Below, piece after piece: positions 2,690-26,189 of a stretch of DNA of 64,000 bases. This DNA is from Pseudomonadota bacterium (GTDB lineage Bacteria; Pseudomonadota; Gammaproteobacteria; Xanthomonadales; Xanthomonadaceae). Every line of letters begins with the position of its first letter. Within the stretch, counting starts at the first letter, position 1. The position numbers were made by a program, and so were the translations under genes. A model generated the notes under the pieces. It was given only the letters and a program-made list of their open reading frames with translations, was not told where the DNA came from and did no database searches. Location of the stretch: positions 372,001-436,000 of the forward strand of contig JAKACT010000002.1 of assembly GCA_021821195.1 (NCBI GenBank). The letters run 5' to 3'.

Positions 2690-3298
2690 ATGTCGATCAC
2701 CCTGAACTTCGAGCTCAACGACCACGATCTGGCCCATTTCCAGGCGGCAGCGGAGCGTTCCCGCAAGGCGGTGGAAGGCAAGGGCACCGAGGAGATCGTG
2801 GCTGCGGCGATCGCGCTGCTGGACGATGCACAGAAGACCCAGCTGCCGGACTTCATCCGCCAGCGCCTGCTGCGCCTGGACGACATGATCGCGATGGTGC
2901 GCGACGACGCCTGGTCGATGCCCGACGCCGACCGCCAGCGGGTGCTGTCGGCGCTGGCGTACTTCGCCGACCCGAACGACATCATCCCGGACGCCGTGCA
3001 GGTGCTGGGCTTCCTCGACGACGCGGTGATGATCGAGCTGTCGGTGCGCGAACTGGCGCACGAGCTGGACGCCTACGACGACTTCTGCGATTACCGTGCC
3101 CGCGAAGCCACTCGCCGTGGCGTCGAGCCGGCCACGCTGGGCCGCACCGACTGGCTGGATAGCCGCCGCGAGGAGCTGGTGGACCGGATGCATGCCCGCC
3201 GCGAGCGCGACTTCGGCGTCGGCTACGGCCGCAGCAGCGGCTATGGCCGCGAGTCCTACATCCGCACCTGGCGCCCCGGCGTGTTCACGGTGCGCTGA
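2690..3298 (+). CDS. YkvA-like DUF1232 protein
   Basis: A 202-residue protein whose middle carries the DUF1232/YkvA signature: LAYFADPNDIIPD followed by a hydrophobic helix with GFLDDAVMIEL. YkvA proteins are small, poorly characterised and often membrane-associated; no reaction is established. The C-terminal third is charged (many Arg) and ends in a Gly/Arg/Tyr-rich tail. A GGGG tract lies a few bases upstream of the chosen ATG, and an upstream in-frame start at 2627 would add sequence without family similarity. It sits six bases before the thioesterase gene and is probably cotranscribed with it. Confidence 0.8.
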   Translation: MSITLNFELNDHDLAHFQAAAERSRKAVEGKGTEEIVAAAIALLDDAQKTQLPDFIRQRLLRLDDMIAMVRDDAWSMPDADRQRVLSALAYFADPNDIIPDAVQVLGFLDDAVMIELSVRELAHELDAYDDFCDYRAREATRRGVEPATLGRTDWLDSRREELVDRMHARRERDFGVGYGRSSGYGRESYIRTWRPGVFTVR

Positions 3299-3303
3299 GC
3301 CGC

Positions 3304-3747
3304 ATGGCCGCGCGCGATTTCGCCTGGCCGCAGGGCACCACCCTCGAAGCCCTGAACGCGCGCTCCGCCGGGACGCTGATGGAGGCGCTCGGCATCGTCT
3401 TCACCGAACTGGGCGACGGCTACCTGCGCGCCACCATGCCGGTGGACGCACGCACCCACCAGCCCTACGGCCTACTGCACGGCGGCGCCTCGGTGGCGCT
3501 GGCGGAAACCCTGGGCAGCAGCGCCGGCGCGCTGCTGGCCGGCGGCAACGCGGTGGTGGGGCTGGAGATCAACGCCAACCACCTGCGCGCGGTGCGCGAA
3601 GGTAGCGTCACCGGCACCACCCGCCCCCTCCACATCGGCCGCAGCACGCAGGTGTGGGAGATCCATATCGAAGACGAGGCCGGCCGACCGGTCTGCATCA
3701 GCCGGATCACGCTGGCAGTGCTGCCACAGCCGCCCGCTTCCGCCTGA
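3304..3747 (+). CDS. Hotdog-fold thioesterase (PaaI/YdiI type)
   Basis: A 147-residue single hotdog-domain acyl-CoA thioesterase. The motif LLHGGASVALAETLGS (residues 57-72) contains the characteristic HGG and the catalytic acidic residue Glu68, as in YdiI/EntH/PaaI proteins that hydrolyse aromatic or fatty acyl-CoA. The length is normal for the family (135-150). It starts six bases after the YkvA-like gene and its ATG follows a TGA-GCCGC junction, suggesting translational coupling. Substrate cannot be read from sequence; a menaquinone role (MenI) is unlikely to be the reason for its presence, since UbiE is in the window but no men gene is. Confidence 0.87.
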   Translation: MAARDFAWPQGTTLEALNARSAGTLMEALGIVFTELGDGYLRATMPVDARTHQPYGLLHGGASVALAETLGSSAGALLAGGNAVVGLEINANHLRAVREGSVTGTTRPLHIGRSTQVWEIHIEDEAGRPVCISRITLAVLPQPPASA

Positions 3748-16912: not shown

Positions 16913-17527
16913 ATGGTGCCGCTGCCCCGCTGGTGGTTACGCAGGCGCCATGCCGGTGGCGAGTGGGCCGCGCTGTGGCAACCGCCGCCGGCCGGCGAAT
17001 GGGTCAGCCTGGACCTGGAAACCACCGGCCTGGACCCCACCCGTGATCACATCCTCAGCCTGGCCGCGGTGCCCGTGCGCGATGGCCGCGTCTGCCTGTC
17101 GGAGCGTTTCGAACGCCGCGTCCACACCGCGCGCGCGTTCGGCATCGAATCCATCCGCCACCACCGCATCACCCCCGATGAAGCCAGCGAAGGCGAGCAG
17201 GTGACGGACGTGGTGCGCGAGTTCCTGCACTGGCTGGGCAGCCGCCGCCTGCTGGGCTACTACCTGGGCTTCGACCTCGACATGCTGCGCCCGCACGTGC
17301 GCGCGCTGACCGGCTTCGACCTGCCCAATCCGGTGGTGGATCTCGGCGACGAAGTCGCCCGGCACCAGCGCCGCCAGCGCCCCAACGCCCCGGTAAACCT
17401 GGACTTCGCCCACATCGCGGAAAAGCTGGGCGTGCCGATGGTGGAGCGGCACAGCGCGCTGGGGGATGCGACGACGGTGGCGTTGTGCTGGCTTGCGTTG
17501 CAGGCGCGGGGATGGCCGGGGGAATAG
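16913..17527 (+). CDS. 3'-5' exonuclease, DnaQ/DEDDh family
   Basis: A 204-residue exonuclease resembling the epsilon subunit of DNA polymerase III. Exo I is SLDLETTGL (Asp34, Glu36), Exo II lies in YYLGFDLDML, and Exo III is HSALGDATTVA with the DEDDh histidine and aspartate. The start follows the DUF294 stop by one base (TGA-G-ATG), so the two genes are translationally coupled. The basic N-terminus (WWLRRRHAGGEW) is typical of this operon-associated class, not of replicative epsilon. The substrate is unknown. The gene marks the left edge of the lower-GC island that follows. Confidence 0.9.
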   Translation: MVPLPRWWLRRRHAGGEWAALWQPPPAGEWVSLDLETTGLDPTRDHILSLAAVPVRDGRVCLSERFERRVHTARAFGIESIRHHRITPDEASEGEQVTDVVREFLHWLGSRRLLGYYLGFDLDMLRPHVRALTGFDLPNPVVDLGDEVARHQRRQRPNAPVNLDFAHIAEKLGVPMVERHSALGDATTVALCWLALQARGWPGE

Positions 17528-17543
17528 CAGTTGGTCGTGAGAT

Positions 17544-17567
17544 GGCCGCTTTCGACCCTAAGCGGCC
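17544..17567. repeat. Hairpin at the left island edge
   Basis: A perfect eight-base inverted repeat, GGCCGCTT (17544-17551) and AAGCGGCC (17560-17567), with an eight-base loop TCGACCCT. It lies 16 bases after the exonuclease stop. It lacks a T-run and could be a weak terminator or a member of a dispersed palindrome family; similar CCGCTT elements occur at 20154 and 24363. Confidence 0.55.
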
Positions 17568-17633
17568 GGTCAGTCACACGGGAAGTACTGACGCCTGTCT
17601 TGTAGGATGGGAAGAACTGGATAAAGCAATCAA

Positions 17634-18968
17634 ATGCCAATGCGAACGCCATACATTCCCCATGTCTTTGGCGATGCAGTCGATCAGAAGCTTCGTAGCC
17701 AAATGGGATGGTTTACGGGAGCAGTTGCTTCCTCCATACCTTGGCCAACTAAAGACGTATGGATTCAGTACGCAGGCGATGACTTCATTCTTCGTGGAAT
17801 GGGAGACGGGGAGCAGCGGTTGGCGCCAGCGATCACTATGCCTGGTGTCATGCAGCGGCGAGACGAATGTCTTTCCAAGCTGTATCGCTTCACCTCGGTT
17901 CTGGGATGGTTTCGCGACGGGTTTGTAGACGTAGTCGATGTCTTGCATGGTAGTCGGGCGGCGGTCTTTGGCGTCGGAACTCGTCTGGCGCACTCCTCAA
18001 TCCGGGAGTTAGGAAGTAAAAGTTTTGACTGCAATCACATGCCGATCATCGAGGAAGAGAGCGTCCGGATCGCGCTGGCCTTCTGGCGAGAAGGAGAGAG
18101 GCTGTCCGGTGTCCACGACAGCTATGCGTTCCTTAGTTATTTCAAGGTTATCGAGTCCCAGTATCAGGATGGACGAGATCGGGCAGATTGGTTTACAAGA
18201 AATCTCGACGATCTGACTAATGAGCGAGCAGTGACTCGCATCGCGGAGTTGCGTGCGATTGGCGAGGATGTAGGACGCCACTTGTATGACAGTGGGCGCA
18301 ATGCTGTGGCGCACGCCTCTTTCGGCGGAGAAATTGTCGATCCGGATATTCCCTCTGATCGACGTCGTATTGCCGCTGATCTGGTTCTCATGAGGGAGCT
18401 GGCACGTCGATACATCGCAGAGGAGTTGAGCGTTCCCACTGCCATGTCGCTCTACGCATCACGTAATCGATTGGAGCCGTGGGAGCCACTTATCGATCCT
18501 CAAGCATTGACGACGCTCAAAGCCGGTGGAACGCCCGACCCAGCTTTGCTTGGGCTAGAAGAGCTGCGAGTTGGACTACGGCTCTGGCCAGATGACCCAC
18601 TTCCAGGTCTAGACGCGATGACGATGCGTGTAGATGCGGTCCATGAAGGAGCGGCTAGGGTGCTGTTATTCAATGATCGAATGACGATGATGTTTGCCTT
18701 TGTTCTTGATTATAGGAACGGGCGGATCCATACACAGCTCGACAATAGCAGTCTCCTCCAGAACGACGAGCATCGCCCGGTCGAGCAAGACGTCCGGGCG
18801 TTCTATACCGTGTTTCACAGCGTGATAGGAAACGCAGTCGTTGAGCTTCTCCTGGAAGGTCGGGAGCCGATCGACTGCGAAGTGGTGATTCCTGTGAATA
18901 TCATTCCCCGTAATCCGGATGAGGCTGTTGAGGAAGCTGTGGAGGCTTTTAGGCGACAACAGGAATGA
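17634..18968 (+). CDS. MauJ-like protein with a HEPN-type RNxxxH motif
   Basis: A 444-residue cytoplasmic protein with no signal peptide or membrane helix. The middle contains FLSYFKVIE (about 165-173) and, later, RNAVAHA at 222-228. The latter fits the R-N-x3-H core of HEPN domains, in which Arg and His line an RNase active site. The overall pattern recalls proteins annotated methylamine utilization protein MauJ, although no other mau gene is present, so that name is likely only a family label. The C-terminal third is a separate alpha/beta-looking region. Codon use is less GC-biased than flanking genes. The RES-domain gene follows 208 bases later on the same strand. HEPN assignment is by motif only; activity is inferred. 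Confidence 0.65.
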   Translation: MPMRTPYIPHVFGDAVDQKLRSQMGWFTGAVASSIPWPTKDVWIQYAGDDFILRGMGDGEQRLAPAITMPGVMQRRDECLSKLYRFTSVLGWFRDGFVDVVDVLHGSRAAVFGVGTRLAHSSIRELGSKSFDCNHMPIIEEESVRIALAFWREGERLSGVHDSYAFLSYFKVIESQYQDGRDRADWFTRNLDDLTNERAVTRIAELRAIGEDVGRHLYDSGRNAVAHASFGGEIVDPDIPSDRRRIAADLVLMRELARRYIAEELSVPTAMSLYASRNRLEPWEPLIDPQALTTLKAGGTPDPALLGLEELRVGLRLWPDDPLPGLDAMTMRVDAVHEGAARVLLFNDRMTMMFAFVLDYRNGRIHTQLDNSSLLQNDEHRPVEQDVRAFYTVFHSVIGNAVVELLLEGREPIDCEVVIPVNIIPRNPDEAVEEAVEAFRRQQE

Positions 18969-19176
18969 TGGGGGCTGGTTATGCCTGAGTAGGCCGGGGT
19001 GAGCTTGCGAACCCCAAAGCTGGGGGCGACAATACTGCGGCGCCAAATGTGATAAGCATCCACTAAGGCCCGATTTCAACGAATTGGGATTTCGGAAGCG
19101 AGCGACGATGGCTGTCGAGAAGGCTGACAATGTTGGGGTCTCTGTGCTCCCCAGCCTAGATAGGGATCACTAATTC

Positions 19177-20046
19177 GTGAACTTAGATCGATGCGAAGCT
19201 ATCTTTGATCGCGCTCTTGCGTCGAAAAGTGAGGCTGAGTTCTGCTATCACATCACTCCTCTTTTCGACGTTTACGAGATTCTTTCTTTCGGATTGGGGC
19301 GCGGCAGTAACACCTTCTGGCGCGCGAGGCTTACGGAAGCTGGCCCGTGGATGTTCCTGAAAGACATGGACTACCCGCCGGCTGAAAAAGCGCGTGCTGG
19401 GCGTCTGAACGATGCTGGCGCTCCTTGCTTCTACTTGGCCGGCAGAGTGGAAACAGCCTTGCTGGAGGTGGATGCTCAGGAGGGCCAATTGATACAGCTC
19501 GCGGCCTTCAAGATTGACTCAGAAGAGATGGTTCGCCTAGTGCTTGTGGGCGAGTACACGTATGTACATAAGACTGGATACGTGCGACTTACAGGCGTTG
19601 ACCCTGCGGGGACAATCAAAAACGTACTCAATGGAATGTCGCCTGAGAATGCTAAAGCAACAATCTACATAGATAGATTCTTTGCCAGCATCATCAATGA
19701 CCCTCACGCCAGAGAATCTGGATACATGTTTAGCCGAGCATTGGGTGCGGCATTGCACTCAAGAATTAAGGATGCCGACGGGATCGTATTCCCAAGTGTG
19801 CGCGACCCGGGCGGGTTCAACTACGCGATCCTGCCGGAACCTTCGGATCGCGTCTTTCGGAACGTTGCTTGTGCACTTGCTAGGATCGGAAAGCGCCGCC
19901 GTTATCAGCTAGTCGAGTACACGTTCGTCGGTTGCGCTGACTCGTTGGATACGGAGGAAAGTTTCATATGGGCCGATCCCTACCACCCCAACACGCTGGG
20001 GATGTATGGCATGACGAAGGATGAGTTCGAGCGTAAAGCGTTCTGA
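19177..20046 (+). CDS. RES-domain protein (putative NAD+-targeting enzyme)
   Basis: A 289-residue protein with a RES domain. The motif residues are in the expected order: Arg49 (FWRARLTE), the segment AGRLNDAGAPCFYLAGRVET with Glu92, and Ser207 in DGIVFPSVRDPGGFNYA. In characterised RES toxins these positions bind or cleave NAD+. The N-terminal 40 residues (YHITPLFDVYEILSFGL) precede the domain, and the C-terminal 60 residues are extra relative to the small toxin forms. The start is a GTG with only a weak AGGGA upstream. No small Xre-type antitoxin gene is adjacent, so it is not a standard two-gene toxin-antitoxin module; its probable partner is the preceding HEPN-like gene. Confidence 0.78.
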   Translation: MNLDRCEAIFDRALASKSEAEFCYHITPLFDVYEILSFGLGRGSNTFWRARLTEAGPWMFLKDMDYPPAEKARAGRLNDAGAPCFYLAGRVETALLEVDAQEGQLIQLAAFKIDSEEMVRLVLVGEYTYVHKTGYVRLTGVDPAGTIKNVLNGMSPENAKATIYIDRFFASIINDPHARESGYMFSRALGAALHSRIKDADGIVFPSVRDPGGFNYAILPEPSDRVFRNVACALARIGKRRRYQLVEYTFVGCADSLDTEESFIWADPYHPNTLGMYGMTKDEFERKAF

Positions 20047-20153
20047 CAAAACTCTTTCCGTCACCGGTCTTTCTGTGGCGTCTATACGGTGATTCGAATT
20101 CAGTTGCAATCGTGAAAGGTGGCTTCGGGTCGAACGTCGCCGCCAACTTAAGA

Positions 20154-20188
20154 GTCCGCTCTTGGCCGGATAACGACCCAAAGCGGGC
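20154..20188. repeat. Imperfect palindrome at the RES/STAND convergent junction
   Basis: GTCCGCT (20154-20160) and AGCGGGC (20182-20188) are inverted with one mismatch around GGCCGGATAACGACCC. It lies between the RES stop and the NTPase stop and resembles the elements at 17544 and 24363. It may serve as a bidirectional terminator or be a dispersed repeat. Confidence 0.4.
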
Positions 20189-20210
20189 ATACGAAAACCT
20201 ACAGAGACGG

Positions 20211-21844
20211 CTACCGGAGGATCAGTTCTTCCAAGGCGTTAAGTCGTTCTGTCAGCTCCAGACGGAATGGACCTTCATCGCTGTGTGTTACAGCCAATCT
20301 CGCCTGCTCCAACGCTGCCGGGTAGTTTCCAGCATGCTTCAGGCAGCGGCTGACCATGTCGAAGTACGACGCGAGGTTCTTTGCTGCGCGTGGATCAGCC
20401 TGTGCGCCGGCGAGGGCTTCCCTAGCCGTTTGAAGCGACTGAGGAAGTTCAAGTGCCAACTCAGCCTCGGCACGGCGGTAGAGCAACCAGTGGTTGACCT
20501 GTCCGGCCGGTACCCCCGTAATAATCTGCAGTGCGCGGGCTGGGTCGCCAGCAATCGTGAAAACCTTCGCAACGCCGCGAGCGGTAAATGAGTCCAGTGC
20601 GCCGGCCGCGAGCAGCGATTCAGCGTATACAAGACTCAAACCCGACAATCGCCTTGCCAGCGCCTCATCCCCTGCCCGCTCCGCATTCTGCGCGACATTG
20701 GCCAGTGATTCGCTGACGCTAAGCAAGTGCTTCTTGCCAATCGAGGCGGGTGAAACTTCGAACATGTCCCCAACGGCGCTAACCAACTCGAAGCTAATGC
20801 GCGGATGCCGGTAGCTGAACTTCGAGGTGAAAGCAAAGAAGGCGTCATAAAACTGATCGAGACCTTCGAGCGCTGATTGGCTTATCACCTCGCCAAGCGC
20901 ATTGATGCTCTGCTCATCGGCATTCAGCTTCTCGGTCAACTCAGGATAAGAGCGCAGGTTACTTAGCGCCGCCATGGCCACGCGCAAAGGCACGGCGGTT
21001 GGATCTTCAATCATCTGGGTGACCAGATGATCCAACGAGCGGTGCCCGGCTTCTTTGGCCTGCTCGTTGGCATCGTGCTGAGCGCCTAGATGTGCAATCT
21101 GGCCATGCGTCGCGTGCCACGTAGGCTCCAACTCCAGCAATTGCTGAAATGTCGCTAGTGCTCTATCGATCTCACCACTACGGCGATAGGCCTTACCAAG
21201 GTGATGCAGCAGCTCCGCTCTGTTTCTACCTTGCGCAGCGCCGAAGGCGCGGTCGTACTCCTGGGCGCATGTCGCGTAGTAGCCGGGGCGTTCCTGATGA
21301 TCCAAGGTGTAGGCGTACTGCTCACGCGCATTGATCGTGGACATGAGCGCTGCCAAACTGCCGTCAGGAACAATTGGCCAGCCGGCGTAGGCGCCGAAGA
21401 CCTCCTGCTTTGCCCCTTCGATCTGCAACAAGGCGTACAGCAACCAATCGGGATCGCGCTCTCCGCGGCGACGGCGCTCGTCCAACAATTGCGTTCGAGA
21501 CAAATGAATCTGCCGCAGCGCGGACGGAGTCATCTCTCCCTGCAACTGGTCGATGTACCGCTCGACTTCCATGACCAGGTCGGCCGTGCTGTCGGCCGTT
21601 CGAATGGCCCGGCACACAAGGTCATGGACAAGCAAGATTCCCGGCGCGCTCGCTGGCGAGAGGAACGCCAGCTTCTGAAGCTCTAACTTTGGGACGTGGC
21701 CAATGAAGTGAGCAAGAAAGCCTCCGTCATGCATTCCTAAGCCGGTGTTGGCAATCTTCTGCAAGGCGGCCAACGGTGCGCCATCCAGTCGACTCAGGAT
21801 ACTTCTTAGAATGGAGATGCCGTCGTCTCCACTCAGCGCGTCCG
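20211..21844 (-). pseudogene. C-terminal TPR part of a STAND NTPase, cut off by an IS element
   Basis: This fragment encodes about 544 residues, mostly helical repeats: a TPR unit AELLHHLGKAYRRSGEIDRALATF is followed by further repeats to the end (a final pair reads HAGNYPAALEQARLAV). TPR arrays in STAND ATPases serve as target-recognition or oligomerisation sensors. It lacks its own start and the NTPase domain. Joined to the segment at 23073-24235 after deleting the IS and one TCCG copy, the frame continues without interruption (PDALSGDDGISILRSILS across the junction). An internal TTG or ATG could start a truncated protein, but no good ribosome-binding site was noticed. Confidence 0.88.
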
Positions 21845-21870
21845 TGACCTGCCCCCACTGAGCCGTACCA
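21845..21870. repeat. Left terminal inverted repeat of the IS
   Basis: The first 13 bases, TGACCTGCCCCCA, and the inner CCGTACCA match the complement of the right end, with two or three central differences. Confidence 0.92.
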
Positions 21871-21910
21871 CTCGAAGCTAGGTAGAGTCCGTCATCCAGA
21901 GAGGACGGAC

Positions 21911-22177
21911 ATGCGCAAGAGTCGCTTCACCACGGAACAGATCATCGGCTTCATCAAGCAGGCCGAGGCCGGCATGGCGGTATCGGAGCTGGGCCGGCAG
22001 CACGGCTTCAGCCCGGCCAGCTTTTACGCCTGGCGGGCCAAGTACGGCGGCATGGAGGCCGAAGACGCCAAGCGCCTGAAGGAGCTGGAGTCGGAGAACA
22101 ACCGCCTGAAGCGGCTGCTGGCTGAAGCGCACCTGGACATCGAAGCGCTCAAGGTTGGCTTCGGGGTAAAACGTTAG
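21911..22177 (+). CDS. IS3-family transposase OrfA
   Basis: An 88-residue helix-turn-helix protein that binds the IS ends. The start MRKSRFTTEQIIGFIKQAE and the segment FSPASFYAWRAKYGG are hallmark IS407-type OrfA, and a leucine-zipper helix (LKELESENNRLKRLLAEA) follows. It ends with GTA-AAA-CGT-TAG. The AAAA there, together with an open -1 frame running into orfB, suggests that a fused OrfAB transposase is made by -1 frameshifting, as is known for IS3 elements. It is preceded by GAGAGGACGGAC. Confidence 0.95.
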   Translation: MRKSRFTTEQIIGFIKQAEAGMAVSELGRQHGFSPASFYAWRAKYGGMEAEDAKRLKELESENNRLKRLLAEAHLDIEALKVGFGVKR

Positions 22178-22209
22178 CCCCGCAACGCAAGCGCGAGGCG
22201 GTCCGGCGC

Positions 22210-23043
22210 ATGCTCGAACTCACGACGTTGAGCGAGCGCCGGGCCTGCCGCCTTGCGGGGCTGTCCCGCGATGCCTTCCGCCATCCGCCCGAACAGACGC
22301 CTGCGACCCAGGCGCTGTCGGCGCGCATCATCGAACTGGCGCAGGTGCGCCGCAGGTTCGGCTATCGCCGCCTGCACGACCTGCTACGTCCGGAGTACCC
22401 GGCTGTGAACCACAAGAAGGTCTACCGCCTGTATCGCGAGGCGAACCTGGTCGTGCGTCGTCGCAAGAAGGTTCGCAGGCCGCCCAGCGAGCGCCAGCCG
22501 CTGTCGTCTGCGACGGCACCCAACGCGGTATGGAGCATGGATTTCGTCAGCGACGCGCTGGCCAACGGGCGCCGCCTGAAGTGCCTGACGGTCGCCGACG
22601 ACTTTACCCACGAGTGCGTCGACATCACGGTCGACCATGGCATCAGCGGCGCCTACGTCGTGCGCGTGCTGGATCAGGCTGCGCGGTTCCGCGGCTACCC
22701 GCGGGCGGTGCGCACGGACAACGGTCCGGAGTTCACAAGCCGGGCCTTCATCGCATGGACGCAACAGCACGGCATCCAACACCTGCTGATCGAGCCTGGC
22801 CGACCCATGCAGAACGGCTACATCGAGAGCTTCAACGGCAAGTTCCGGGACGAGTGCCTCAACGAGCACTGGTTCACGTCGTTGGCTCAATCCCGCAACG
22901 TCATCGCCGAGTGGCGCCGCGACTACAACCAAGTCCGACCGCACAGCAGTTGCGGACGCATCCCGCCGGCCCAGTTTGCCGCCAATCATCGAACCCAAAC
23001 CAACCCCACCGAAGTACCCTTCAACCCTGGGCTCTCCCAGTAA
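22210..23043 (+). CDS. IS3-family transposase OrfB (DDE integrase domain)
   Basis: A 277-residue catalytic domain. The DDE triad is visible: Asp in WSMDFVSDAL, Asp in RTDNGPEFTS, and Glu in YIESFNGKFRDECLNEHWF, followed by the IS3-typical YNQVRPHSS. The HTH_21 segment RRFGYRRLHDLL precedes it. The ATG at 22210 is in the -1 frame relative to OrfA and the frame is open back through the OrfA stop, so most product is likely an OrfAB fusion. The stop lies four bases before the right inverted repeat. No disruption is seen. Confidence 0.95.
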   Translation: MLELTTLSERRACRLAGLSRDAFRHPPEQTPATQALSARIIELAQVRRRFGYRRLHDLLRPEYPAVNHKKVYRLYREANLVVRRRKKVRRPPSERQPLSSATAPNAVWSMDFVSDALANGRRLKCLTVADDFTHECVDITVDHGISGAYVVRVLDQAARFRGYPRAVRTDNGPEFTSRAFIAWTQQHGIQHLLIEPGRPMQNGYIESFNGKFRDECLNEHWFTSLAQSRNVIAEWRRDYNQVRPHSSCGRIPPAQFAANHRTQTNPTEVPFNPGLSQ

Positions 23044-23047
23044 TGGC

Positions 23048-23072
23048 TGGTACGGCTACTGGGGGCAGGTCA
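23048..23072. repeat. Right terminal inverted repeat of the IS
   Basis: TGGTACGGC...GGGGGCAGGTCA is the complement of the left end, with the terminal CA directly followed by the TCCG target copy. Confidence 0.92.
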
Positions 23073-24235
23073 TCCGGAGACGTTAGCACCTCTTTATAGA
23101 AGGCATCGCGTGGGATGCCTTGAGATTCAATGACGCTCTTGGCCGTAGCCAACACCAGAGGGAGGAATCCACACGCGTCCACGAATTGCTCGCTGATCTC
23201 CCTGGCTTGTGCGGGGTCTTCGCCAAGAATGCGCATGGCTACGTCCCTGGACACTCGGGGGATTGGGACATGCGAGTCCGCGCCAGGGACGGCGACTTGG
23301 GAGGTAACGATCACTACACCGCCCTTATCGAAGCCAGGCTGGAGCTCAGCAAACACTGCCGGGTCCACGGCCTGATCAAATCGGTCGAAAACCAGAATGG
23401 TCTTGGTCGAATTGAAGCTGCCGACCACGTTCAGGGGTCTTCCGCCGCGCCGCCGGGTCACGGCGGAGAGCGGGATGTCAGGGTTCCAGTCCCCACTTGC
23501 GAGCCAGACGTAGTTATCGAAGTTCGCCGCTTCCGTGTGGACGAAGTCGATCGCCGCTTGGGTTTTGCCCGATCCGCTCAACCCGTGCAACACGGCCAGC
23601 GAGCGCCCCCCCGCGAAGTGGTTGCGCAAGGCAGTGAGGACCTCTCCGTGGGACTGATGATTTGCACACTGGGCCGGTAGGCGACCGAAGTACTCGAAGT
23701 TGTCGAGCGCTTGGCCAAACTCGGGGAAGAACTCACTGAAGAAGGCAGCCGCATCGGGCCTCTCGACGGAAAGGTCATAGATACGTCTGGCAAGCTCCCG
23801 CGCGTCCAAGATGACTAGCGCCTCTCCCAGCTTTTGCGCCAAAGGGGTGCCATTGAACTTTGCTCGGAAGGAAGGGATTTCCTGGTCCGTGGACATCAGA
23901 TAGATCTTGGTCGCACCGGTCGTCGAGCTATGCGTTTCTGCGCTCTGTGCGTCCTTCTCTATCTTTTCGTAGACCGCAACACCATCTTTGCCGGTGTCCT
24001 TGAAGTAGGAGTCCTCGGTGCTGTATTGGGCAACGATCGTCGAATCGTCGGAAAATGAATCGACGGTATATCCGACGAACTTGTAGTCCTTATTGATGCC
24101 GTGATGCACCAGTCTCCTGTTCTCCAAGAGCTCCACCAACCCGTGTCCCGCCAGCTCCAGATGCAAGGGATCCAGCGCCGAAATCTCACTGATCAATCCA
24201 CTGACAATACGCTGCTTGATGGACTCGAATAACAT
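23073..24235 (-). pseudogene. N-terminal NTPase part of a STAND NTPase, truncated by an IS element
   Basis: About 387 residues of the original gene. Residues 1-160 form an uncharacterised N-terminal domain with TVDSFSDDSTIVAQYSTED, loosely like a nuclease core; this is speculative. Then come Walker A GLSGSGKT (218-225), a Walker B-like ILVFDRFD (about 280-287) and a helical GFLPLVLATAKSV as in NB-ARC/STAND ATPases. The ATG at 24235 has a GGGGGAG site eight bases upstream and is preferred over a start at 24265. Translation now runs into the IS and ends at 23021 with a short foreign tail. The intact gene would encode 930 residues, the layout of Avs-like antiviral STAND proteins. Confidence 0.88.
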
Positions 24236-24362
24236 CGATAAAACTCCCCCATGTATTTGGGCCAATCCTACTGCCGTTTCATGCGAGAGCGCGGCTGCCT
24301 CTCCGCAGTCACAAAGCTCCGCTCACAGCAGGGGATGGTGAGCATCCGGGCAAGCAGGGGAC

Positions 24363-24387
24363 GACCGCTTCTGGCCGAAAGCTGCCC
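24363..24387. repeat. CCGCTT-type imperfect palindrome at the right island edge
   Basis: GACCGCTT (24363-24370), spacer CTGGCCG, then AAAGC and GCCC. It resembles the elements at 17544 and 20154 and lies just before the actP terminator. The pairing is weaker than at 17544. Confidence 0.3.
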
Positions 24388-24399
24388 TATTCCACAAAT

Positions 24400-24428
24400 A
24401 AAAAAACGCCGGCCTTGCGGCCGGCGTT
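24400..24428 (-). terminator. Intrinsic terminator of the actP operon
   Basis: A ten-base perfect stem, AACGCCGGCC (24405-24414) with its complement 24419-24428 and loop TTGC, followed on the minus strand by seven T. It lies 27 bases past the actP stop. Confidence 0.93.
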
Positions 24429-24455
24429 CTGCGTACGCGACGTGGGGGAGGCGCG

Positions 24456-26189
24456 TCAGTGGCCGGAGGACTTGGAAGCGCCGAGTCCCGTCTCCGCCCG
24501 CACCTGCTGGGCCTTGAACGCGCCGCGTTCCTTGGCGGCCTGGGCGCTGCGGTCGGTGATGGAGAAGAACCAGATGCCGGCGAAGGCGATCGCCATCGAG
24601 AACAGCGCCGGCGAGGTGTAGGGGAACCAGGCCGAGCCGGCGGGGTTGCCCAGCGTGGCTTCCCACACCGAGGGCGAGACCACCGTCAGCGCCACCGAGG
24701 ACACCAGGCCGAGGAAGCCGCCGATCACCGCGCCGCGGGTGGTGCAGTCCTTCCACAGCAGCGACAGGATCAGCACCGGGAAGTTGGCCGAGGCGGCGAT
24801 GGCGAAGGCCAGCGACACCATGAAGGCCACGTTCTGCTTCTCGAAGGCGATCCCCAGCAGCACCGCGATCACGCCCAGCGCCACCGTGGTGATGCGCGAG
24901 ACCTTCAGTTCGGAGGCGCTGTCGGCCTTGCCCTTCTTCAGCACGGTGGCGTAGAGGTCATGCGACACCGCCGACGCGCCGGAAAGCGTGAGGCCGGCCA
25001 CCACCGCCAGGATGGTGGCGAAGGCCACCGCCGAGATGAAGCCGAAGAACACGTTGCCGCCCACCATCTTGGCCACCAGCACCGCCGCCATGTTGGCCGC
25101 GCCGGCGCCGCCCTTGATGTTGCCGGCATCGGCCATTTCCGGGTTGGTCAGCACCATGGTGATGGCGCCGAAGCCGATGATGAAGATCAGGATGTAGAAG
25201 TAGCCGATCCAGGTGGTGGCCCAGAACACCGACTTGCGGGCTTCCTTGGCGTTGGGCACGGTGAAGAAGCGCATCAGGATGTGCGGCAGGCCGGCGGTGC
25301 CGAACATCAGCGCCATGCCGAAGCTGATCGCGCTGATCGGGTCCTTGATGAAACCGCCCGGGCCCATGATCGACAGTCCCTTGCCCGCCGCGCCTGCGGC
25401 TTCCTCGGGTGTCGCCGCTGCCGCGGCCGCCAGCTGGGTCTTCACCTGCACGCCCTTGGCGAACAGCGCCTCCGGGCTGAAGCCGTAGTTCGCCAGCACC
25501 ATGAAGGCCATGAAGGTCACGCCGGCCAGCAGCAGGCAGGCCTTGATGATCTGCACCCAGGTGGTGGCGGTCATGCCGCCGAACAGCACGTAGACCATCA
25601 TCAGGCCGCCGACGATGACCACCGCGATCCAGTACTCCAGCCCGAACAGCAGCTTGATCAGCGCGCCCGCGCCGACCATCTGCGCGATCAGGTAGAACGC
25701 CACCACCACCAGCGTGCCGGAGGCGGCGAAGGCGCGGATCGGGGTCTGGTTGAAGCGGTAGCCGGCCACGTCGGCGAAGGTGAACTTGCCGAGGTTGCGC
25801 AGGCGTTCGGCCATCAGGAAGGTGATGATCGGCCAGCCGACCAGGAAGCCGACGGAATAGATGATGCCGTCGAAGCCGCTGCTCATCACCATCGCGGAGA
25901 TGCCCAGGAACGACGCCGCGCTCATGTAGTCGCCGGCGATCGCCAGCCCGTTCTGGAAGCCGGTGATGCCGCCGCCGGCGGTGTAGAAGTCCGCCGCCGA
26001 ACGCGTGCGCGCCGCCGCCCACTTGGTGATCCACAGGGTGGCGAGCACGAACACGGCGAACATGCTGATCGCCACCCAGTTGGTGGGCTGCTTGTCGACC
26101 TGGCCGAGGTCGCCGCCGGCGGCCAGCGCGATGTTGCTGGCCGTCATCGCGGCCAGCGCCAGCGATGCCTTCATCTTCGATGCGTTCAT
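24456..26189 (-). CDS. actP: Cation/acetate symporter ActP
   Basis: A 577-residue sodium:solute symporter-family (SSF/SLC5) protein that takes up acetate and other short carboxylates across the inner membrane. It has an N-terminal cleavable-looking signal (residues 1-24) and about 13 membrane helices. Family motifs include [25 protein letters not shown] and [11 protein letters not shown]. An insert of Ala/Glu ([15 protein letters not shown]) lies in the loop after helix 7. The start overlaps the yjcH stop by four bases (ATGA), so the two are translationally coupled. The operon is porin-yjcH-actP, ending at a strong terminator. Length is close to E. coli ActP (549). Confidence 0.95.

Follow-up and report, generated by a model that had tools for sequence, protein, structure and literature searches.

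A predicted nuclease-STAND-TPR gene interrupted by an IS3-family insertion sequence in a Xanthomonadaceae genome

Avs proteins are the described systems closest in layout to the gene studied here. According to the available part of PMC12931631, Avs1-4 carry nuclease effectors that cleave the DNA of both phage and host once packaging proteins or other proteins of the phage are sensed, activation being triggered by the terminase, the portal or another phage protein. Two type I restriction loci offer a second point of comparison: PrrC-EcoprrI, in which the hsd operon includes the gene of an anticodon nuclease, a suicide effector that the restriction enzyme keeps sequestered (PMC3874165, available part), and the RptR-RMS-DarTG2-M48 island of enteropathogenic Escherichia coli (EPEC), in which DarTG2 lies within a type I operon and which is active against phages in E. 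coli (PMC12255303, available part). Here we analyse a 64,000-nucleotide stretch of a 2.92 Mb Xanthomonadaceae genome (the window; G000:C6:372001-436000), in which a gene for a STAND NTPase with C-terminal TPR repeats is cut in two by an insertion sequence (IS). We propose, by analogy with Avs1-4 (PMC12931631, available part), that sensor, switch and nuclease were joined in one chain: the gene probably encoded a single-protein STAND-type anti-phage receptor, of which the window copy is most likely inactive. We give this reading a probability of roughly 0.7.

The cut gene and its uncut relatives

The gene lies on the minus strand, with its ATG at 24235 and its stop codon ending at 20211. Gene and element are laid out as follows (aa, amino acids):
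20211..21840, minus strand: C-terminal STAND fragment, 543 codons plus stop, with a linker and the TPR/helical-repeat region
21841..21844, no strand: target-site duplication TCCG, left copy
21845..23072, plus strand: IS3-family (IS407-group-like) insertion sequence, 1,228 bp
21911..22177, plus strand: OrfA of the IS, 88 aa, HTH_Tnp_1 (E 2.7e-25)
22210..23043, plus strand: OrfB of the IS, 277 aa, integrase core, rve_3 (E 2.1e-32)
23073..23076, no strand: target-site duplication TCCG, right copy
23077..24235, minus strand: N-terminal STAND fragment, 386 whole codons plus one base, with the nuclease-like domain and the NTPase

An earlier note on this DNA had described a single clean insertion at 21845-23072 in a STAND-TPR gene of 931 codons, with both fragments otherwise open. 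The coordinates and the arithmetic hold, and the fragments (386 and 543 codons) are free of internal stops. The closest uncut relative, in Lysobacter sp. yr284 (locus L007:8001-10793), is a frame of 2,793 bases including the stop, that is, 930 aa, which is the length that had been predicted. The N-terminal fragment is 92% identical to residues 1-386 of this protein and the C-terminal fragment 89% identical to residues 388-930, both without internal gaps; residue 387, outside both alignments, falls on the target site. In the DNA alignment window position 21844 corresponds to L007 position 9160 and 23073 to 9163: the flanks of the element overlap in L007 by exactly the four target bases, and the tetranucleotide is present once, at the predicted place. 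The note had staked its reading on an uninterrupted homologue in another genome and on this junction, and both were found. Because natural uncut homologues exist, an in-silico join of the fragments is unneeded and chance or a frame artefact is ruled out as the source of the split gene; and because the homology is full-length and colinear, a chance expectation for the split is unnecessary too.

Scanning genome contigs with the N-terminal fragment turned up uncut relatives at six loci, all of them complete frames that measure about 930-937 aa, the exact length varying with the start codon chosen. Within the window's family, a search with the C-terminal fragment re-found genome G283, taken to be Lysobacter sp. 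yr284 and of a different genus from the window, and added G263. None of 15 other same-genus genomes matched the C-terminal fragment, and hence none gave an uncut allele, in a sample with no genome known to be of the same species.

The insertion event itself is ordinary. The element ends in perfect 13-bp terminal inverted repeats (TGACCTGCCCCCA), both of its genes are open reading frames, and TCCG is identical on either side of it, forming a 4-bp duplication. The note's assignment to the IS407 group is backed by the OrfA/OrfB arrangement with an integrase core, by the 4-bp duplication, and by full-length DNA similarity to the plasmid-annotated ISXca1 (82.4%) and IS476 (79.7%), which we take to belong to that group; yet the nearest full-length copies found are unnamed elements in other genera of the family (96% in G232, 95% in G287). 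A single full-length copy was found in the host genome, where the other four matches are partial and 65-81% identical, and relatives at E ≤1e-100 occur in 23 of 296 sampled family genomes, the window's own counted.

A predicted nuclease-like fold on a STAND NTPase

Two regions of the N-terminal fragment bear on the nature of the protein:
23723..24235, minus strand: PD-(D/E)XK-like N-terminal domain, residues 1-171, as predicted from model mb314f72347b7, VIA matches and conservation
23078..23650, minus strand: P-loop STAND NTPase region, residues 196-386, with motifs that we take to be Walker A (GLSGSGKTQ), Walker B-like (TILVFDR) and GLPL-like (CGFLPL)

Although the N-terminal domain had been called uncharacterised, its model finds its best matches among PD-(D/E)XK nucleases and in the N-terminal domain of Avs4. 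The model, made from window residues 1-188 together with six relatives, has a mean predicted local distance difference test score (pLDDT) of 81.4 and a predicted template modelling score (pTM) of 0.80, with pLDDT below 50 at residues 46-60. It runs from two helices through two strands (57-60, 67-72), a helix (90-106) and a strand (110-115) to two further helices, a strand (140-143) and three final helices, an arrangement that contains the alpha-beta core of the PD-(D/E)XK fold, at moderate scores. The top rows of the VIA-align comparison are MspJI (9.0), AspBHI (8.5), a second MspJI entry (8.4), Avs4 (8.3) and Shedu (8.1); lower down, polymerase subunit E chains (at most 6.9) are mixed with SduA (6.8), EcoT38I (6.1), FokI (5.6) and Cap4 (5.5). 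Foldseek gave no row at E ≤0.001 with this domain, the best being EcoT38I (E 4.5e-3). Our confidence in a PD-(D/E)XK-like fold, as modelled, is good but not full, because Foldseek alone is weak beside the VIA-align ranking. Sequence-profile matches of the domain in the PDB (ferritins and others, all at E ≥0.03) were taken as chance.

The active site appears unusual. Seventeen N-terminal domains were aligned, in two subgroups: twelve at least 47% identical to the window copy (itself counted) and five at 23-28%. Eight residues are invariant in all 17 (E27, G46, D59, F78, K91, D95, L113 and A149). Position 70 is E or Q throughout, and position 72, the site of the motif lysine, is S in 16 domains and N in one, so that the D...(E/Q)-x-K signature keeps D59 and E/Q70 and lacks its lysine in 17/17. 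In some PD-(D/E)XK enzymes this lysine shifts position. K91 lies in the helix after the usual position and is the only invariant lysine, making an atypical active site possible, and the alignment suggests that the catalytic lysine may have moved to that helix. The missing ExK lysine would also suit a domain that keeps the nuclease fold, is catalytically dead and binds DNA or protein, the STAND protein then being a scaffold or a regulator, for instance of an adjoining restriction enzyme; the position of the gene between hsdM and hsdS at two loci (L053 and L054, below) fits such a role. We consider this unlikely, since E27, D59 and K91 are invariant across both subgroups, including the one that is only 23-28% identical to the window copy, and since the lysine is known to move in enzymes of this fold.

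The central region carries the marks of a STAND NTPase: a Walker A motif, a Walker B aspartate and a GLPL-like motif, followed by repeats. In seven full members the P-loop is GLSGSGKTQ or near-identical and D284, C355 and P359 are invariant; G218, G221, G223, K224, T225, D284, P359 and L362 are invariant in 10/10 members. The NCBIfam model FxSxx_TPR matches 7/7 members, far below its cut-off (best E 1.5e-10; residues 197-390 in L007), and NB-ARC similarity is seen in 5/7, falling short of the Pfam cut-off where bits are given. In the window fragments themselves Pfam returned TPR-type repeats (TPR_2, E 5.2e-08, C-terminal fragment), a weak AAA_16 and nothing else. A moderate full-length model of L007 (mean pLDDT 74.2, pTM 0.50) has a helical C-terminal half. 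A fold search with all 930 residues, uninformative on the N-terminal domain, gave mostly TPR and similar helical-repeat proteins and included the STAND-TPR protein 6mfv (E 5.1e-4) and the apoptosome 3j2t. A full-profile search of the PDB at E ≤0.01 gave only TPR-type consensus, engineered or designed proteins, over the TPR region.

As judged from sequence and model, the protein has the three-part layout of Avs, with a nuclease-type N-terminal domain, a central STAND NTPase and C-terminal repeats. The earlier note's term "Avs-like" stands in this respect, but not as a match by name. No AVAST-named model of PADLOC-DB 2.0.0, a library that presumably contains AVAST models, matched the two window fragments (for which the library gave no match at all), seven members at E ≤1 (where four other families matched) or eight STAND proteins at E ≤0.01. 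Avs4 (AVAST type 4; PDB 8dgf) is also a longer chain, of 1,534 residues against 930 here, and its N-terminal domain matches that of the window in fold, with 14% identity in the aligned domain. The STAND family to which the gene belongs is unnamed and its active site is odd; the 2023 PADLOC library has no name for the members tested. The gene is related to known bacterial immune sensors but has been little studied. In the receptor that we propose, the C-terminal TPR region would recognise a phage component, and recognition would free the NB-ARC-like NTPase to oligomerise. The PD-(D/E)XK-fold domains, clustered in this way, would then cut DNA (of the phage, the host or both) and halt the infection through cell killing or arrest.

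Gene neighbourhoods and spread of the family

Ten loci had neighbouring genes (L006, L007, L008, L009, L011, L019 and L052-L055), and at 9/10 some of these were covered by model tests. A named defence-type gene lies within about 5 kb at 7/10 loci, a raw count with no background rate to compare, which is why it supports a defence role and does not prove it. The Lysobacter gene (L007) has PtuA (2.4e-44) and PtuB (5.3e-29) of Septu about 3 kb upstream, and also a Schlafen/AlbA gene. An LmuB-like gene (2.9e-37) is one gene away at L006, the intervening gene being without match; on an Enterobacter plasmid (L019) a gene that matches Tmn over its first part (2.2e-48) lies about 4 kb downstream; a GajB-like C-terminal piece (4.9e-51) is directly upstream at L008, where the 1,348-aa gene before the locus had no model match. 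AbiTii (2.1e-34) was found at L052 (G263). At L011 a UvrD/GajB-like helicase (1.3e-32) lies at a distance of about 4 kb and could be an ordinary helicase; that locus also holds a TnsB-like gene. The single neighbour tested at L009 had no match, and the same is true of further genes at L007, L011 and L052.

Other genes stand beside the homologues. Just upstream of the STAND gene of Lysobacter sp. yr284 is an OST-HTH/LOTUS gene (L007:7046-7906), and G263 has a 567-base match to part of it, at 93.8%, just downstream of its own STAND gene (L052:11954-12448). Upstream of the homologue in Pseudomonas sp. REP124 (L006) are two Sir2-like frames (476-1273 and 2865-3614), the first recognised by eye and the second by SIR2 at E 4e-52.

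At L053 (G683) and L054 (G759) the gene is part of a type I restriction operon. By Pfam, HsdM precedes the STAND gene and HsdS, DarT and HsdR follow it; a macro-domain (darG-like) gene was recognised by Pfam at L053, the one locus where it was put to that test. The order is hsdM-STAND-hsdS-darT-macro-hsdR, and the STAND frame overlaps the hsdM and hsdS frames by four bases. L055 (G802) has the same order by frame reading, with truncated STAND and HsdS parts. The EPEC island likewise has DarT and a macro gene between hsdS and hsdR, as at L053, but the seven open reading frames listed for it in the available part of the paper (PMC12255303) include no STAND gene, which here sits between hsdM and hsdS; the term TPR is absent there too. 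No STAND gene in a type I restriction operon was reported among the literature matches listed, subscription papers lying mostly outside that search. What is shared with PrrC-EcoprrI (PMC3874165, available part) is a suicide effector, here a putative one, within an hsd operon; PrrC, however, is sequestered by its restriction enzyme, and no such contact is known for the STAND protein. Tentatively, and with a low probability, one may picture an undescribed family of compact nuclease-STAND-TPR receptors, with the catalytic lysine moved to a helix, that is both mobile alone and built into type I operons, where it would add a suicide layer and, as PrrC does, detect when a phage attacks the restriction enzyme.

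The STAND family is rare. The C-terminal fragment matched 5/296 genomes of the window's family: three hold true relatives (the window's own, G283 and G263), and in the other two the match is weak and partial (25% and 32% identity). A full-profile search found 1/369 genomes of the class at E ≤1e-40, the window's own. The N-terminal domain profile matched 4/398 genomes of the phylum (the window's own counted), 2/8 and 1/18 genomes in the families of two matches (those matches counted) and 2/20 in the genus of G263. Plasmid records gave 4/72,556 at E ≤1e-5, one of them covering at least 80%; no relative was found in 50,697 phage records, and 32 pattern stretches in viral contigs yielded 0 confirmed.

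Some STAND-TPR proteins act as regulators, and the site that holds the window's gene seems, from frames read by eye, to carry non-defence cargo in relatives. A signalling or regulatory STAND protein unrelated to phages would agree with both points; given the defence-type neighbours at 7/10 loci (again with no background rate) and the patchy presence of the gene, we regard this as improbable and keep to the anti-phage receptor.

A distant subgroup lies on plasmids of Pseudomonas sp. XWY-1 (L020), Sphingomonas aerolata (L022) and Burkholderia glumae (L048), where an annotated dTMP kinase gene and a divergent radical SAM gene precede the STAND gene. The kinase of L048 matches the PADLOC candidate PDC-M51B at 1e-13. 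The dTMP kinase, radical SAM and STAND genes of these three loci may form a multi-gene defence system.

Fate of the window copy and its site

The insertion lies after codon 386, where the NTPase ends, and hence parts effector and switch from the sensor, making loss of function likely. A transposing IS3-family element has cut the gene at the boundary between NTPase and predicted sensor, leaving an effector and NTPase half without a sensor and a sensor half without a start signal of its own; the window copy is most likely dead. The earlier note had taken the disruption to be recent, a claim that the comparison with L007 does not bear out. This nearest uncut allele is separated from the window by a synonymous divergence (dS) of 0.36-0.40, which is too far for the insertion to be dated, and open fragments are a weak sign of recency because just 3-4% of random single changes give a stop.

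We compared the fragments for signs of decay, excluding the target-site codon and polarising branch changes with L014 as outgroup. Pairwise ratios of nonsynonymous to synonymous divergence (dN/dS) between the window and L007 are 0.114 (N) and 0.136 (C), similar to the values for the uncut pair L007 and L014 (0.104 and 0.103). Changes on the window branch number 28.5 synonymous and 11.5 nonsynonymous in the N-terminal fragment and 45 and 22 in the C-terminal one; on the L007 branch they number 20 and 7, and 34 and 5. The nonsynonymous excess of the C-terminal fragment on the window branch (22 vs 5) is suggestive only (Fisher P 0.036), the N-terminal one is not significant (P 0.79, with the fractional counts 11.5 and 28.5 entered as 12 and 28), and no difference was seen between the two window fragments (P 0.83). 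These counts hint that the C-terminal half may be slightly decayed, or that its sensor may be evolving fast. An N-terminal half that is still made, as 386 native residues with an IS-coded tail, and works as, for example, a constitutive or dominant-negative effector would explain its lack of stops and of a nonsynonymous excess (11.5:28.5 nonsynonymous to synonymous, vs 7:20 in L007). STAND effectors, however, are normally triggered through the sensor that is lost here (PMC12931631, available part), an unrestrained nuclease would be expected to be toxic, and a simple scan found no sigma-70-like promoter in 21700-24500, a weak point with 0.6 expected by chance; we hold such a product to be very unlikely. 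An inactive copy of the anti-phage receptor remains our preferred reading.

The gene sits in a variable stretch of the chromosome:
17530..24400, no strand: low-GC variable island, holding MauJ-like, RES and STAND genes

Its guanine plus cytosine (GC) content is 58% (17400-24300), vs 68.5% over the window. Same-genus homology ends at 17522-17529 on the left (4 genomes); on the right, 5 genomes align again from 24360, 24400-24401 or 24426. The same flanks enclose about 3.2 kb in G081, 5.4 kb in G668 and 39.9 kb in G150, the three relatives that span the site; apart from an IS-like stretch in G150, none of their cargo matches the window's DNA at E ≤1e-8. In G666, where contig ends interrupt the site, a TonB-receptor-like frame was seen (by eye). 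As read by eye at L033, L034, L035-L037 and L038, the site lies between exonuclease-like and acetate-symporter-like genes, and its cargo differs among relatives; by sequence comparison the site is variable, and nothing marks it as dedicated to defence. The DNA match of the STAND gene to L007 is limited to 20208-24279, and the gene therefore seems to have arrived as a single gene. An Rfam search of 17000-25000 gave no match at E ≤0.5.

The island also holds a MauJ-family gene (17634-18968; PF17419, E 6.5e-25) and then a RES-domain gene (19177-20046; PF08808, E 9.1e-17), convergent with the STAND gene; these two are possibly a toxin-type pair. In G150 the site has an integrase-like gene and a run of short genes in which nearly identical repeats of ~60-110 bp abound, resembling an array of integron cassettes (attC and IntI by eye; L036), beside metal-transport-like genes (L035). 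That the window's island is itself an integron cassette was ruled out: it shares with the G150 stretch only the downstream flank, the IS-like stretch and one 24-base match (E 0.006).

The interest of the insertion lies in the STAND family that it brings to notice, which is rare and has an unusual nuclease-fold domain. Where restriction, DarT plus a macro-domain gene, and a STAND receptor share one operon, they offer a concrete, testable case of layered or guarded immunity, and the window is an example of such a gene most likely lost through transposition.

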